A program made the translations under genes and the position numbers. DNA of 47,205 nt from an uncultured Verrucomicrobiota bacterium (GTDB lineage Bacteria > Verrucomicrobiota > Verrucomicrobiia > Chthoniobacterales > JACTMZ01): assembly GCA_903934135.1 (NCBI GenBank), contig CAIZMQ010000017.1:1-47205 (forward strand), given 5' to 3'. The stretch's first letter is position 1. Each line of letters starts with the position of its first letter. The notes below the pieces were generated by a model. That model was not told the DNA's origin, ran no database searches, and worked only from the letters and a program-made list of their open reading frames with translations. Below, piece after piece: positions 28,129 through 34,868 of this stretch.

Positions 28129-28997
28129 ATATTCTTCTTCTCGGGTCCGGAGGTTTGCTCGGCCGTTATCTGGCCAAGGAATTGGCCGCCGGGCATGCCC
28201 TGGTCGCACAAACACACCAAGACGCCGATATCACCGACGCATCGCGCCTCGACGGGTTGTTCGCGCGGCGGTGGGATGCCGTCATCAATGCGGCAGCGGT
28301 ATGCGATTTCGACGCCTGCGAGAAGAACCCCGGGGAGACCGGACGCATCAATCGCGAGGCGCCCCTTGACCTGGCCCGGCGCTGCGCGGCGCAAGATGCG
28401 CTATTCGTCCAATACAGCTCGGACTACGTTTTCGGCGGAGAAGACGACCGGTTGCTCTCTGAGTCCGATGCTCCCCATCCGCTCTCGGTGTACGGACGCC
28501 AAAAGGCCGATCTCGAGCAGCTCATTCCATCCGCTTGTCCGCGCAGCCTGATCTTGCGCGTGTCCTGGCTTTACGGGCTGGGAGGAAAAACCTTCATGAG
28601 CCGCATGCCCGGTCTTCTCATGCAGCAGCAATCTGTTCGCACCGCAGCGGGTAAAAAAGGCTGCTGCCTTTACGCCGCCGACGGTGCGTTCTGGACACGC
28701 CAACTGATCGAGGCCGGCCAGACCGGATTGCTCAATTTGGTCAACCCCGGTGCAACATCTTGGGAAGAATTCGCCCAAGCGACCTTGGTCCAGATGAATG
28801 CTATGGGCCTGGCTCCAAAATGTGGGGACATTCAAACCGTACCTTATAAGCAACTCGGACCCGATTGGGCCAAGCGGCCGCGCCACTCCTGCCTCGATGC
28901 CGGGAAGCTTGCCTCGGTCCTTCCGCCCGGGCCGCGAAGGTGGCAGGAGGCTCTGGGTGAATTCCTTTCCGCGTGGAAATCGGTTGCCGCCGCGTAA
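28125..28997 (+). CDS. RmlD-like dTDP-4-dehydrorhamnose reductase / NAD-dependent sugar epimerase family
   Basis: A 290-residue short-chain dehydrogenase of the extended type, from ATG 28125 (4-bp overlap with GT9). It has the NAD(P) loop ILLLGSGGLLGRYL, DITDASRLDGL, VINAAAVCDFDACEKNP, the active-site YSSDYVFGG, YGRQKADLE with the catalytic Tyr/Lys, and LRVSWLYG. RmlD makes dTDP-L-rhamnose, but no rmlABC genes are present here, so other nucleotide-sugar reduction is possible. It belongs to the glycan operon; the exosortase gene follows 25 bp later. Confidence 0.88.
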   Translation: MNILLLGSGGLLGRYLAKELAAGHALVAQTHQDADITDASRLDGLFARRWDAVINAAAVCDFDACEKNPGETGRINREAPLDLARRCAAQDALFVQYSSDYVFGGEDDRLLSESDAPHPLSVYGRQKADLEQLIPSACPRSLILRVSWLYGLGGKTFMSRMPGLLMQQQSVRTAAGKKGCCLYAADGAFWTRQLIEAGQTGLLNLVNPGATSWEEFAQATLVQMNAMGLAPKCGDIQTVPYKQLGPDWAKRPRHSCLDAGKLASVLPPGPRRWQEALGEFLSAWKSVAAA

Positions 28998-29022
28998 ACA
29001 GTGTGAAAGCTTCTGGTTTCCC

Positions 29023-29994
29023 ATGAACTCCACCGCTGTGGCCCCCGACTGGCGAGCCTCCCTGGCCGCGCCGAACATTTTTGCGGCTCTCACCGCGGCC
29101 GGTATTTTCTACGCCCTCTTTTTCTGGTTCCCCTACGCCTCGGGCTACGGGGCCACGCGGGTCGGCATGTTCGAGTTCATGGGCTGGATTTGGAAAAACA
29201 ACACCGAGTGGGAACACTGCTGGCTGGTGCCCCTCTTCGCCCTCGGACTCGTCGTTTACCGCCGCAAAGCACTCGCCGCGCTTCCGGTCAGCGGTTCGTG
29301 GCTCGGCTTGGCTGCTCTGCTCGGAACCCTCTTTATCTATTGGGTCGGCTATTTGGCGGACAATATCTACGTCGGTTATGCCGCCATGCTCGGGTTTATC
29401 GGCTCACTCGTCCTTTGGTTCCTCGGATGGCAATGGCTCAAGGCGCTTTCCTTCCCCATCGCCTTTCTGGCGTTCATGTTTCCTTTGCCGTTCATGGACA
29501 ACTTTCTCGCCTTCCCCCTGCGTATTTTCATGTCCACGGTCAGCGTCGGTTTCCTCAATCTGATCGGTCTTCCCTGCCTGCAACAAGGCACTGCCATTGT
29601 CTCGACGCCCGACTTCGCCGCAGGCCTCGCGGCCGGTGAACGCTTCGCGGTCGATGTGGCTGATCCTTGCAGTGGCATCCGTTCGCTCTTCGCCCTCATG
29701 ATGGTCAGTGCCCTCTACGGATTCATCGCCATGGATAAATCGTGGCAAAAATGGGTCGTCTTCCTTGCCTCGGTTCCCCTAGCCGTGGCCGGCAACTTTG
29801 CCCGCATCATCATGCTCACCATCGGCACCATCGCGCTCGGGCCCGAAACCGCCATCGGTACGCTGGAGGAACCGACCACTTTCCACATGCTTTCCGGATT
29901 CCTCGTCTTCGCCGTCGCGCTCGGCGGCATGCTTGGGGTGGGATGGTTGCTGCAACGCTTCACCCCCCAACCCCACACCGCACCAACCCCATGA
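29023..29994 (+). CDS. Exosortase (transmembrane cysteine transpeptidase-like)
   Basis: A 323-residue protein with eight or more hydrophobic helices, from ATG 29023. The exosortase triad is visible: Cys216 in DVADPCSGIRSLFAL, Arg261 in AGNFARIIML and His288 in FHMLSG. Exosortases process proteins with C-terminal sorting tails (PEP-CTERM and relatives) and are nearly always next to exopolysaccharide genes. The ATGA overlap with the EpsI gene and the upstream glycosyltransferases fit that. No target protein with a PEP-CTERM-like tail is found in this window. Confidence 0.93.
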   Translation: MNSTAVAPDWRASLAAPNIFAALTAAGIFYALFFWFPYASGYGATRVGMFEFMGWIWKNNTEWEHCWLVPLFALGLVVYRRKALAALPVSGSWLGLAALLGTLFIYWVGYLADNIYVGYAAMLGFIGSLVLWFLGWQWLKALSFPIAFLAFMFPLPFMDNFLAFPLRIFMSTVSVGFLNLIGLPCLQQGTAIVSTPDFAAGLAAGERFAVDVADPCSGIRSLFALMMVSALYGFIAMDKSWQKWVVFLASVPLAVAGNFARIIMLTIGTIALGPETAIGTLEEPTTFHMLSGFLVFAVALGGMLGVGWLLQRFTPQPHTAPTP

Positions 29995-30710
29995 TCCGCG
30001 CCATCGACATCCCCTGGTGGCGCTCCGGTACGGTGATCGCGCTGGCCGCTCTCACCATCTGGCTGTGCCGCGAAAGCGCGCCACCCAACATCTCGCCCGA
30101 ATCCGGGGTCATCATGGATCTTCCCACCTTGGTCGGCGAGTATTGGGGCACGAGCGAGCCGGTCTCACCGAGCGAACTGGCTCTCCTGCCCGGTGACACC
30201 GAGTTCGAGAAAAAAATTTACCAGGACCTCACCGGCAATTCGCTCACTGCCCAAGTTGTGCTCAGCGGCGGCGAAAAGCGCAGTATCCACCGCCCCGAGG
30301 TCTGTCTCCCGGGGCAAGGTTGGTCGGTCCAAGCGGGCGAAGTGGTTCCCATCACCCTGGCCAACGGCCGCACGCTCGACGTGATGAAACTCACCCTCAA
30401 CCGCGAAATCGAAACCGGCCCCGGTCAGAGGGTCAATTTGAAGAGCTATTTCCTTTACTGGTTCGTCGGCAAAGACACCTCCACCCCTCACCACTGGGTT
30501 CGCTTGGCCAAGACCAATTGGGACATGGTGGTGAAAAAACTCCAGCATCGCTGGGCCTACGTGATCGTCAGCGCTCCCGTGCTCGAAGGACTCCGGCCCG
30601 GGGCCAAGACCGACCAGCAGACTCTCGATATGCTCAAGGATTTCATCCGCCAATCGGTGCCCAAATTCCAACTGGCCGAAATGCCCTACGACGAACGTCC
30701 GGCTTCGTAA
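29991..30710 (+). CDS. Exosortase-associated EpsI family protein
   Basis: A 239-residue protein from ATG 29991 with a single N-terminal helix (TVIALAALTIWLC) and a soluble extracytoplasmic domain. It has LPTLVGEYWG, the characteristic HRPEVCLPGQGW, and LKSYFLYWFVGKD followed by a C-terminal helix. EpsI domains are found fused to or beside exosortases; their activity is unknown. Its 3' end overlaps the convergent polymerase gene by 68 bp, an unusually long tail-to-tail overlap. Confidence 0.9.
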   Translation: MIRAIDIPWWRSGTVIALAALTIWLCRESAPPNISPESGVIMDLPTLVGEYWGTSEPVSPSELALLPGDTEFEKKIYQDLTGNSLTAQVVLSGGEKRSIHRPEVCLPGQGWSVQAGEVVPITLANGRTLDVMKLTLNREIETGPGQRVNLKSYFLYWFVGKDTSTPHHWVRLAKTNWDMVVKKLQHRWAYVIVSAPVLEGLRPGAKTDQQTLDMLKDFIRQSVPKFQLAEMPYDERPAS

Positions 30711-33700
30711 GCTCCCGCGCCCGCCGCACTTCCTCCACCCGCAGCACGCCACCGCGCCCGCCCGGGGTCTCCACCTTCCCCGTCACCTCGACCACCGGCC
30801 ACCGTGCCAGCACCCCGCCGCACTTCCGGTAGACCTCCGCGAAGATCTCGCACTCGAGGATATCGGTGCGGTCGCAAATGCTGATAAATTTCATGGTGCG
30901 CCCGTCCGACTGACGGTGCAAACGCTGCGCCACAACCAACCCGCACGTCGTGACCCGTTGACCCGCAAACTTCCGCACCTCGCCGACCGGACAATAGGTC
31001 TCCCATCCCACCTCCGGCCAAAGCTCCACCGGATGTCCATGGACCGGAAAGCCGAGCAGCTCCATTTCATCACGTAATTTTTCCAGCCGTCCCGGCTCCG
31101 TCCTGCAGTCCGGCAACGCCGCACCCCGCGCCTCCAAAAGCAGACCTTGTCCCGTCACGCAGGGCGCCAAGGCGCGCAATTCCCAAAACATCTCCGTGCG
31201 CGATGGCCCGAACGCGTCAAACGCCCCCACCCTCAATAAAGCCGCCGCTTCATCCGCCTGCGGCGCGCAACGCCGCCAAAAATCCGCCAAAGAAATAAAG
31301 GGCCGTCTTTCCCCGATTCTCCGCAACAATCCCTCCGACAATCCCTTGATCATCCCCAATGGCACTTGAATTCTCCCACCCGACGCGCCTTCGGCAGTTT
31401 TTCTCCGGCTCATTGGACACCGAACACGGCCAACGGAAAACTTCGTTGTCTCCCCATTGATGTCCGGCCTCCCGAACAAAACCCCCAACCGTCGCGCCTC
31501 GATCGTGTAAAACAACCGGGAATAAAATCCCTTCCCGTGGGTCAGCACGGAGGCCAGAAATTCCGCTGGCCAATACCGTTTCAACTGCGCCGCTTCGTAA
31601 GCCTCCAAACCATAAGCGGTCGAATGGGCCCGGCAAAAGGCATACCCGCGGAACTTCATAAGCAAGTCCCACACATCCGCAATCTCACCTTCCGCGCGCC
31701 CCGCAAGCCGCGCGGCCGCGGCAAATTCTTCGCGCCACGAATCCACCTGCGCCATCCGGTTTTTCACCAGCAAGCGCCGCAATTGGTCCGCCCGCCCCGC
31801 ATCCCATCCGGCGAACACCTCACAAATTTGCAGCACATGCTCTTCGTAAGCGACCACGCCATAAGTCGAACGCAAGACCTGTTCCAAGCTCGGATGGATA
31901 TAGGTCACGGGCTCCTCGCCGCGCGCGCGCCGCGCGAACTGTTCCTTGCGCAGACTGTTGGCCGCGCCCGGACGGATGACCGAGACAATAGCGATCAACT
32001 GGTCGATGGCCCGTACCCCGGACATCCGGGCCAAAGATGTCATGGCCGGACTCTCGATATGATGCGCCCCGCGTGCCTCGCCTTCGGCAATCATCCGCCA
32101 CACCTGCGGATCATCCCATGCCCCGGGCTCCGGCGGATCGAATCCGCGGGCGCGTAATGCCGCGCGCGCGTCGCGAAGCACAGAAAGTCCGCCCTGCGCG
32201 AGAATATCGAGCTTGACCAACCCCATCGCCTCGACCGCTTCCATCTCGAATTGCGTGGTCGCCCGCCCGCTCGCGCTGGTGAATAACGGTGTCAATTCCC
32301 CGACCGGTTCGCGCGAAATAACCACACCGCAGGGATGCATCTTGGCATGACGCGGGAACCCGTCGAGCCGCGCCGCCAACTTCAGCGCCGCCCGGTAAGG
32401 ATTCTCCTCCCAGGTCAAACCACCCGATTCCACCCCGTCCCGTGCCACCTCGGCCACATCACGGGCCGAGGTGTGCGGCAATTTTTCCGTCATGCGCCGG
32501 ATCTGGAGTTCGGAAACCCCCAGCGCTTTGGCGATATCGGCAAAAGCGGAACGGCCTTGGTACGTGTTGAATCCCCCCACCACGGCCGCATGGTGAGGCC
32601 CGTATCGGACAAAGATAATATCCACCACCTCGTCCCGCCGGTCATGGGGAAAATCAAGGTCGATATCCGGCAACTTCTGCAGCTTCATCCGTTCCGGATT
32701 GAGAAAGCGCCGGAAATACAATTCAAACCGCACCGGACACACCGTGCTGATCCCAAGGCAATAACAGACCAGCGAATCCGCCGCGCTGCCCCGCGTGATC
32801 CATTCGATCCCGCGCTCCCGGCAACGCTGGAGCAAATCCCAGACGACCAGAAAATATTCCTCATAGCCCACCTCGCCGATGATGCGTAGTTCCTCTTCCA
32901 CCTGACGCCGCACCCCGTCGGACGGCGCCGCCCCGTAACGCCACTTCATTCCCTCGCGGGCCAACCGCGCTAAAAACTCCCGCGGCAAAGATCCATCCGG
33001 CGGGGCAAACCGCGGAAACTTCAATCCGCCGGTCGGCAAGACAAACTCGCACCGTTCGGCCATCTCCTCCGCATCCCGCATCATCCCCGGCGACGCCTTC
33101 ATTTCCCGCCCCCACGAAAAATCCCCCCGCCGCTTTCTCCCCTGCATCTGTCCCGCCAAGGACAAAGTCCGGATACTCTGCACGACCTCGTAAAATTTCG
33201 CCTCCCGCGTAGCCGCATACCGCACCTCCGGAAACGCGGTGACCGGCCGCAGGATCAATCCCTCCAGCACATCCTTATTCGTCCCGCTGAGCAGACCGCA
33301 CAGATGCCGGTAACCCGCGGCATTCTCGACATAGGCCAAATACCTCATCCCCCCCACCTTCACCTCCGCCCCCACGATCGGCTTGATCCCGGCTTCCTTC
33401 GCCGCGGCACAAAACTCCACCGCCCCGTGCAAATTCGGATCGGTCATCGCCACCGCCTTTATCCCCCGCTCCCCCGCCAAACGCACAATGTCCCCCGGCC
33501 GGAGCAACGAATCCATAAAGCTGAAGCAACTTTTCACATTCAGCGCAGGGAAGGACACGCGGCCCGCAGGTCCGCTCTTCACCGCACGGATGAGCGAGCC
33601 GCTCGTCCCAGCCTCTTTCTGAACACGGCCAACGGAACACTGAACACTTTTAATCTGATGCCCCCTGACCACACTCCCGGCGCCGTATTTTACCCGCGCC

Positions 33701-34821
33701 TCATCCATGACCCGCGCCAAGACCCGCCGCGTCTCCCTCTCATAGCCCGTGCCCGGCAAATCCAGCCCCGTCTGACGCCACCCGCCGCCGTCATAGACCC
33801 GCGACAATTTCAACCCGACCAAACGCAAACTGACCCGCCGGTCCCAGGCCCGCCGTACCAAACGGTCGATCACCCCGTAAACATCCGTCTCCAAATCCGT
33901 CGGTTCCTCCAGACTCTCGCTCCGCCGGCTTTGCTCCATGTCATTGTAACGCAACCGCACCTCGACACACCGGATCATCTTTCCGTCCGCCCGCACCTTG
34001 GCCATCAAATGATCCGCCATCCCGCGCAGCACCCGGCGCACAAATTCTTCATCCGTGGTGTCCTCGTCGAATGTCTCTTGCTTCCCGTAAGACTGCACAT
34101 CCTCACGCTCGGTCACGATCGGACGCTCGTCGATCCCCTGGGAAAATTCCCGCAACCGCCCCGCCCCCGAGCCCGCGATCAATTCCAGACTCTCCACCGT
34201 AGTCTCCGCCACTTGCGCGATGCGGTGTAAACCTGCCGCTTGGAATATGCGTTCCAACTTCGCCCCCACCCCCGGCAGCCACTTCACCTCGAGCGGCGCG
34301 ATAAATTCCCGCTCCGTCCCCGCCGGCACCTCGAGAAAATTGTCCGGCTTGCGAAGTTTTGACGCCACCGCCGAGACCAACTTGCTCGTCCCCAACCCCT
34401 GCGAGACCGACAAACGCAAATGCTCGCGGATATTACGCCGCAAACGCTCCGCCGCTTCGCGCGGCCTCCATTTCGTCACCCCCGACAAATCCCCGTAGCC
34501 CTCGTCAATCGACCCCACCTCCACGACCGGCGTGTAATCGTGAACCAAGGAAAACATCAGCCGCGAAAAATGCTCATACTTCTCGTAATCTCCCGGCAAC
34601 ACGATCAAGTGCGGACAAATCTTCAAAGCCCGCGCCGTCGGCATGGGCGTGTAAACCCCCAGCTTCCGCGCTTCATAACTCGCCGAGGCAATAATCCCCC
34701 GCTTCATTCCCCCCACCGCCACCGCCTTCCCCCGCAACCGCGGCTCGGACGCCACCTCGCACCCGACAAAAAAGGCATCCGCATCCAAATGGATCGCCGC
34801 CCGCTGTTCCGTCCGCTTCAC
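30643..34821 (-). CDS. Fused Y-family (DinB) and C-family (DnaE2-like) DNA polymerase
   Basis: A single 1392-residue frame from GTG 34821. Residues 1-389 are a complete DinB/Pol IV. It has AAIHLDADAFF (D13), SIDEGY (D106, E107), an HhH thumb (LGTSKLVSAVASKL, WLPGVGAKLE), a little finger, and a QTGLDLP stretch where DinB-type proteins carry a clamp motif. Residues ~390-423 are a linker, partly encoded by a 7-bp repeat. From ~424 on it is a DnaE-type alpha subunit: shortened PHP domain, TRGSAADSLVCYCLG, RFLNPERM, catalytic LPDIDLDFP (D719, D721), GLVKLDIL (D872), fingers with YGVVAYEEHVLQI, and an OB-fold (about 1285-1370). Both active sites look intact. No exonuclease or tau-binding tail is seen, as in DnaE2/ImuC. 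Role inferred: translesion synthesis with both polymerases in one chain. Confidence 0.9.
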   Translation of the reverse strand: MKRTEQRAAIHLDADAFFVGCEVASEPRLRGKAVAVGGMKRGIIASASYEARKLGVYTPMPTARALKICPHLIVLPGDYEKYEHFSRLMFSLVHDYTPVVEVGSIDEGYGDLSGVTKWRPREAAERLRRNIREHLRLSVSQGLGTSKLVSAVASKLRKPDNFLEVPAGTEREFIAPLEVKWLPGVGAKLERIFQAAGLHRIAQVAETTVESLELIAGSGAGRLREFSQGIDERPIVTEREDVQSYGKQETFDEDTTDEEFVRRVLRGMADHLMAKVRADGKMIRCVEVRLRYNDMEQSRRSESLEEPTDLETDVYGVIDRLVRRAWDRRVSLRLVGLKLSRVYDGGGWRQTGLDLPGTGYERETRRVLARVMDEARVKYGAGSVVRGHQIKSVQCSVGRVQKEAGTSGSLIRAVKSGPAGRVSFPALNVKSCFSFMDSLLRPGDIVRLAGERGIKAVAMTDPNLHGAVEFCAAAKEAGIKPIVGAEVKVGGMRYLAYVENAAGYRHLCGLLSGTNKDVLEGLILRPVTAFPEVRYAATREAKFYEVVQSIRTLSLAGQMQGRKRRGDFSWGREMKASPGMMRDAEEMAERCEFVLPTGGLKFPRFAPPDGSLPREFLARLAREGMKWRYGAAPSDGVRRQVEEELRIIGEVGYEEYFLVVWDLLQRCRERGIEWITRGSAADSLVCYCLGISTVCPVRFELYFRRFLNPERMKLQKLPDIDLDFPHDRRDEVVDIIFVRYGPHHAAVVGGFNTYQGRSAFADIAKALGVSELQIRRMTEKLPHTSARDVAEVARDGVESGGLTWEENPYRAALKLAARLDGFPRHAKMHPCGVVISREPVGELTPLFTSASGRATTQFEMEAVEAMGLVKLDILAQGGLSVLRDARAALRARGFDPPEPGAWDDPQVWRMIAEGEARGAHHIESPAMTSLARMSGVRAIDQLIAIVSVIRPGAANSLRKEQFARRARGEEPVTYIHPSLEQVLRSTYGVVAYEEHVLQICEVFAGWDAGRADQLRRLLVKNRMAQVDSWREEFAAAARLAGRAEGEIADVWDLLMKFRGYAFCRAHSTAYGLEAYEAAQLKRYWPAEFLASVLTHGKGFYSRLFYTIEARRLGVLFGRPDINGETTKFSVGRVRCPMSRRKTAEGASGGRIQVPLGMIKGLSEGLLRRIGERRPFISLADFWRRCAPQADEAAALLRVGAFDAFGPSRTEMFWELRALAPCVTGQGLLLEARGAALPDCRTEPGRLEKLRDEMELLGFPVHGHPVELWPEVGWETYCPVGEVRKFAGQRVTTCGLVVAQRLHRQSDGRTMKFISICDRTDILECEIFAEVYRKCGGVLARWPVVEVTGKVETPGGRGGVLRVEEVRRARELTKPDVRRRAFRPVGIWAPIGG
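31413..31447. repeat. Heptamer array inside the polymerase gene (DnaE half)
   Basis: Five consecutive 7-bp units in phase, variants of CTGAACA (read on the plus strand: CCGAACA, CGGCCAA, CGGAAAA and others). It encodes residues ~1126-1137 (FSVGRVRCP region), in the loop just before the GRIQVPLGMIKGL strand, where relatives normally have a short turn. It shares the 12-mer ACACGGCCAACG with the other array in this gene. Confidence 0.7.
33619..33653. repeat. Heptamer array encoding the DinB-DnaE junction
   Basis: Five consecutive 7-bp units in phase on the plus strand, including two exact CTGAACA, one CGGAACA and one CGGCCAA. Translated leftward it gives SVQCSVGRVQ at residues ~390-401, exactly between the end of the DinB homology (KYGAGSVVRGHQ) and the PHP start. 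The same family occurs between genes at 44.2 and 45.1 kb. Confidence 0.8.
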
Positions 34822-34846: not shown

Positions 34847-34868
34847 ATACTGTTCAAATGTTCAGTAT
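34847..34868. promoter_or_regulatory. SOS-box-like dyad upstream of the fused polymerase
   Basis: Perfect outer inverted repeat ATACTG-N10-CAGTAT, whose core CTG-N10-CAG has the geometry of the E. coli LexA box. The inner part holds TGTTCA twice as a direct repeat (34851 and 34859). It lies 25 bp upstream of the GTG start, touches the stop codon of the aminotransferase gene, and overlaps a TTGAAC that could be a -35 element. Which motif LexA reads in this organism is not known from the window. Confidence 0.45.

Follow-up and report, generated by a model that had tools for sequence, protein, structure and literature searches.

Many Verrucomicrobiota appear to make an error-tolerant repair polymerase as one chain of two unrelated polymerases. 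In the window, by which we mean the whole 47,205-nucleotide stretch of DNA that was analysed, a single protein is encoded that contains a Y-family and a DnaE2-type polymerase. Both look active from their residues, and the DnaE2-type one has lost its PHP nuclease motif. The best reading is that of an SOS-controlled, one-chain version of the recently proposed DnaE2B-PolY-RecA mutasome, and we put at roughly three in four the probability that this is a LexA-controlled translesion polymerase, a PolY-DnaE2 mutasome turned into one chain. The partnership of PolY and DnaE2 is not in itself new; the novelty lies in their covalent joining and in how widely it is spread.

The fusion gene lies at 30643..34821 on the reverse strand and begins with GTG. 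As an initial sequence-only reading had claimed, it is a single open frame, with 1392 codons and no internal stop; orthologues of the 1392-residue product were found. The protein comprises a DinB-like Y-family polymerase, a disordered linker of about 37 residues and a C-family (DnaE) polymerase. All Pfam matches exceed their cut-offs (coordinates here and for the motifs below are on the reverse strand). The Y half contains the catalytic region (IMS, residues 12-155, 34357..34788) and the little finger (IMS_C, 243-351, 33769..34095). The DnaE half contains a reduced PHP domain (427-517, 33271..33543), matching positions 2-95 of 164 and with the HxH metal motif lost, the palm region (DNA_pol3_alpha, 616-875, 32197..32976), the finger (901-1038, 31708..32121), a helix-hairpin-helix region (HHH_6, 1118-1210, 31192..31470) whose loop has a lineage-specific insert and an OB fold (1290-1365, 30727..30954). 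The six catalytic acids named in the same reading, D13, D106 and E107 in the Y half and D719, D721 and D872 in the DnaE half, are all where it placed them. AlphaFold models show the expected folds for residues 1-620 (mean pLDDT 78.6, pTM 0.43) and 424-1392 (pLDDT 85.9, pTM 0.84). The linker (residues 390-426, 33544..33654) is predicted to be disordered, and a low-confidence stretch at 392-427, with pLDDT below 50, separates the two modelled halves. With Foldseek the Y half, little finger included, matches Pol IV, Dpo4 and other Y-family structures, and the DnaE half matches structures of Pol III alpha. Among solved structures, the best relatives of the Y half are Pol IV.

Conservation was assessed in a set of 42 non-identical fusions, counting the sequences that cover each site. 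D13 is kept in 41 of 41, D106 and E107 in 42 of 42, and D719, D721 and D872 in all 39 fusions that reach them. Estimates of dN/dS over five pairs lie at 0.077-0.113 in the Y half, at 0.106-0.163 in the DnaE half and at 0.25-0.83 in the linker, the length of which ranges from 32 to 195 residues with a median of 41. The PHP HxH motif is lost in the window protein and in most relatives, although a few retain LHVHS. The window chain stops after the OB fold, without the tau-binding C-terminus, a feature which, like the disrupted PHP motif, is expected of DnaE2. These data bear on the idea that one active site is a structural relic, the Y half acting, like ImuB, as the loader of a DnaE2 that is active. 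There are precedents, in that ImuB is described as the Y-family loader for the active polymerase of the ImuB-DnaE2 system in PMC12926913, and in that the PolY partner in a Desulfosarcina operon is without catalytic acids. Nevertheless, the presence of D13, D106 and E107 in every fusion covering them, the low dN/dS of the Y half (0.08-0.11 in round figures) and the lack of any ImuB-C domain in Pfam or NCBIfam scans of the window protein, where the linker is disordered, make this distinctly improbable.

The fusion is a family spread over Verrucomicrobiota. Within the genus, seven genomes have it in one frame (G000, G002, G003, G004, G006, G008 and G010, with the 5' end lost at a contig edge in G008), two have pieces at contig ends (G001 and G005) and two, both of them incomplete, are without it (G007 and G009). 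At the level of the order, 15 of 213 genomes have both halves within a single frame free of stops. Of 387 genomes drawn evenly over the phylum, five, our own included, have a match with an E-value of 1e-120 or lower: two are further one-frame fusions (G394 and G542), in one the junction is in frame as far as the contig end (G499) and one has a DnaE2-like protein alone (G216). Finally, two peptide patterns were searched for in 84,980 species genomes and gave 43 loci; more distant fusions, also outside Verrucomicrobiota, may have escaped these two patterns. Where the phylum is readable from their titles they are all from Verrucomicrobiota, two titles reading only 'bacterium' and 'PVC group'. A further 18 pattern matches in viral contigs included no relative. 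The Verrucomicrobiota concerned are known mostly from uncultured genomes.

It had been set out beforehand that the idea of a fusion should be abandoned if the junction contained a stop or if relatives consistently had two genes in its place. What is seen is the reverse: the junction is kept in one frame in 35 of the 43 loci of named assemblies, a set that overlaps that of the order, and a single locus is split. Among the 35, two go out of frame further on, within the DnaE half (L088 and L093), and two are truncated by the contig end (L058 and L086). Of the other eight, five are cut by a contig end (L061, L082, L090, L091 and L097), two break inside the Y half (L092 and L096), the stretch from RecA-NT-like motif through linker to PHP domain being again one frame in L092, and one, L095 in genome G021, is the only split locus of the 43. 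In the linkers of the 42 non-identical fusions the two alternative frames contain 57 and 51 stops and the coding frame none; since these rows were chosen as open in frame, 35 of 43 is the fairer measure. Most of the source genomes are metagenome bins, which might raise the suspicion that two neighbouring genes were joined in error during assembly or annotation. We consider this extremely improbable given the many independent assemblies, one of them a single-cell genome (L083), in which the sequences diverge to around 50% identity, and an artefact of single cause is rejected on the strength of the one frame in 35 of 43 loci of many assemblies. A different possibility is that two proteins arise from the one frame, the DnaE half being made from an internal start or released by cleavage in the linker. 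The linker is indeed disordered, free in length and weakly constrained, and an in-frame GTG lies shortly ahead of the PHP domain in the window gene. However, the junction frame is kept in those 35 loci despite very different linkers, and this speaks against separate products because halves made apart would not need a shared frame; we therefore regard such an arrangement as unlikely.

Regulation by LexA is suggested by the surroundings of the gene. A palindrome, TACTG-N10-CAGTA, resembling a LexA-type operator, lies at 34848..34867, 27 nt ahead of the start codon. Although the 2.27-Mb genome contains no second copy of the pattern, a reversed control pattern is present three times, and the count alone therefore proves nothing. 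The argument for the box is rather one of place and conservation: it is kept, with no or one mismatch, in the five other genus sequences of the non-identical set that have upstream DNA. A related palindrome extends across the start of lexA in all nine of nine genus genomes, with 2-7 mismatches in 20; when compared with 300 shuffles, none was as good in eight of the nine genomes and four were as good in the remaining one. More broadly, 22 of the 41 fusions with upstream sequence lie directly behind lexA, a LexA-type box with at most one mismatch is upstream of 15, and four have neither. Fusions of other lineages have a TGTTC-N4-GAACA box, which we take to be a verrucomicrobial LexA motif; the LexA motif of Verrucomicrobia was reportedly the subject of a 2016 study in Front Mol Biosci. 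Of the 11 genus genomes, the nine in which LexA is detected are the very nine that have the fusion, whole or in part. The fusion polymerase is apparently switched on by DNA damage. In seven of the genus genomes it is the only match to the IMS family. In the two incomplete genus genomes without the fusion, LexA was undetected and other Y-family proteins are present instead.

After the little finger, the Y half ends in a motif resembling the N-terminal motif of RecA (residues 365-388, 33658..33729), which was recognised by profile alignment and overlaps a helix at 358-379 in the model. When a profile of this tail was compared with that of whole RecA, the best local match fell exactly at the N-terminal motif, with an E-value of 0.0095 and an hhalign probability of only 4.3%. 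One of 200 column shuffles reached the same score, and none did so at the N-terminal motif. As regards the clamp, the putative site in the Y half reads Q-T-G-L-D-L (33757..33774) and is degenerate. The site of the DnaE clamp motif is probably the Q-G-L-L-L at 31135..31149, where the replicative DnaE (DnaE1) of the same genome has QQSLF. The pattern Q-x-x-[LMI]-[LFW] is found there in 22 of 38 fusions, so not in all, and in seven of seven from the genus. Contact of the fusion with the clamp would depend on degenerate motifs.

The origin of the two halves was addressed with trees. In a C-family tree of 80 proteins, made by a quick method and rooted at the midpoint, 39 fusions form one clade (SH-aLRT 99). 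Nearest to them are unfused proteins of Verrucomicrobiota (G021 and G216), and next out come DnaE2 of Bacteroidota and of Desulfosarcina (SH-aLRT 97, in what is a quick tree with long branches). The DnaE half lies outside the clades of DnaE1, the replicative DnaE of the order, and of DnaE2 linked to ImuA and ImuB. In the Y tree a single clade (100) unites the fusions with five unfused PolYs of Verrucomicrobiota, and the fusions need two changes there because the split G021 protein is unresolved from them. In G021 (L033, L034 and L035) the DnaE2-like protein is divided between two genes on separate contigs, one for a PHP module and the other for a polymerase core that lacks PHP; PolY sits behind lexA. 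Other genomes of the order (L117, L118 and L134) have a row of lexA, an unfused polY related to the Y half and a third protein that, by eye, resembles a free-standing 5'-3' exonuclease of the Pol I type.

These relationships also bear on the choice between known systems. The DnaE2 character that the sequence-only reading gave to the C-terminal half stands, the tree placing it beside Bacteroidota DnaE2, while the system it used for comparison, ImuB-DnaE2, does not prove the closest. Closer are operons of Bacteroidota in which dnaE follows an active dinB, seen on plasmids of Emticicia (overlap of 1 nt), Adhaeribacter (overlap of 4 nt) and Chryseobacterium (gap of 13 nt); in each case the dinB product has the active-site residues and a RecA-NT-like tail. 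From phylum, gene order and partners we infer that these plasmid proteins are the DnaE2B group of the published papers. PMC12926913, which in 2026 surveyed over 3000 species, distinguishes eleven mutasome types, including one of DnaE2B, active PolY and RecA in Bacteroidetes; this putative mutasome also appears in the earlier PMC6511836, and a dinB-dnaE operon under SOS regulation in PMC8565304. The fusion shares with the Bacteroidota system an active-looking PolY followed by DnaE2 in the same order, a RecA-NT-like tail, apparent SOS regulation and, in the genomes surveyed, the absence of ImuA and ImuB. The two genes of Bacteroidota are replaced in the window by one chain with a disordered linker, and because it is one chain, not separate subunits, the fusion is a variant of DnaE2B-PolY-RecA rather than a plain member. 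Equally, cooperation of two active polymerases is not new, since it is already proposed for DnaE2B-PolY-RecA in PMC12926913.

The ImuA-ImuB-DnaE2 system has in common with the fusion a Y-family homologue, a DnaE2-type polymerase and a link to LexA. It differs in that ImuB is catalytically dead whereas the Y half of the fusion keeps its active site, in its ImuB-C domain, to which the window protein has no match in Pfam and NCBIfam scans, and in the clade of its DnaE. Furthermore, a second, ImuA-like match besides that of RecA was found in none of 17 fusion genomes, whereas such an extra match, a short one, is present in 10 of 12 comparison genomes; no match in either set passed the curated cut-off. 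A plain ImuB-DnaE2 reading is rejected on the grounds of the retained Y-site acids, the other clade of the DnaE half and the lack of an ImuA match in the 17 fusion genomes. The Desulfosarcina ovata plasmid operon lexA-DUF72-PolY-DnaE, of the DnaE2B-iPolY-RecA type, shares the LexA operon and the RecA-NT-like tail, and its DnaE2 is related to the DnaE half of the fusion at 33% identity, but its PolY is separate and inactive, the catalytic acids being missing. With DinB (Pol IV) the Y-family core is shared; the fusion adds the RecA-NT-like tail and the fused DnaE polymerase. The belief that no such protein had been described has so far held: no PolY-DnaE fusion was found in the open-licence literature searched, nor in the accessible portions of PMC12926913, PMC6511836, PMC3919608, PMC3765255 and PMC8565304. 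In PMC12926913 the word 'fusion' does not occur, and 'fused' occurs twice, both times of other proteins.

In the mechanism that we propose for a one-chain mutasome, DNA damage would lead RecA to relieve LexA repression of the fusion gene. RecA may then bind the RecA-NT-like tail of the Y half, by analogy with proposals for UmuC and other PolYs, and the clamp would be held via the DnaE half (QGLLL), perhaps also weakly via the Y half. The Y site, as presumptive inserter, would place a nucleotide opposite the lesion, after which the flexible linker would allow the tethered DnaE2 site, as presumptive extender, to take over and to extend without proofreading. The linker would substitute for the protein-protein contact of separate mutasome subunits and fix their ratio at 1:1. 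The fuller picture, of a natural single-polypeptide mutasome with insertion and extension in cis, gated by RecA at the junction side of the Y half, serving as the only Y-family polymerase of the cell and of single origin in Verrucomicrobiota from an overlapping polY-dnaE2 pair, is offered tentatively, as a possibility with almost as much for it as against.

The fusion bears on how inserter and extender polymerases are selected and exchanged in translesion synthesis. With the two tied at a fixed 1:1, a single purified protein and a pair of point mutants would suffice to test each step. The fusion is also of the Rosetta-stone kind, lending support to the idea, which previously rested on gene neighbourhood and modelling, that DnaE2B-type PolY and DnaE2 act as one complex. 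In some Verrucomicrobiota a single chimeric enzyme may carry out all Y-family translesion synthesis.

Both variable sites of the fusion protein, the linker and the helix-hairpin-helix loop, carry one common short insert, TTCCGTTGGCCGTGTTC. This 17-mer has exactly two copies in the whole genome, at 33621-33637 (linker) and 31422-31438 (loop), and because both are within the fusion gene a dispersed genome-wide repeat is rejected as the cause of the fusion. A relative of 1584 residues (L010 / L079) has three near-identical in-frame repeats of about 40 residues in the same loop. Lastly, the 3' end of the fusion gene overlaps tail to tail, by 68 nt (30643-30710), an open reading frame on the forward strand (29742-30710). 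The latter follows an exosortase gene (28798-29994, Pfam Exosortase_EpsH), whose EpsI-like partner it may encode.
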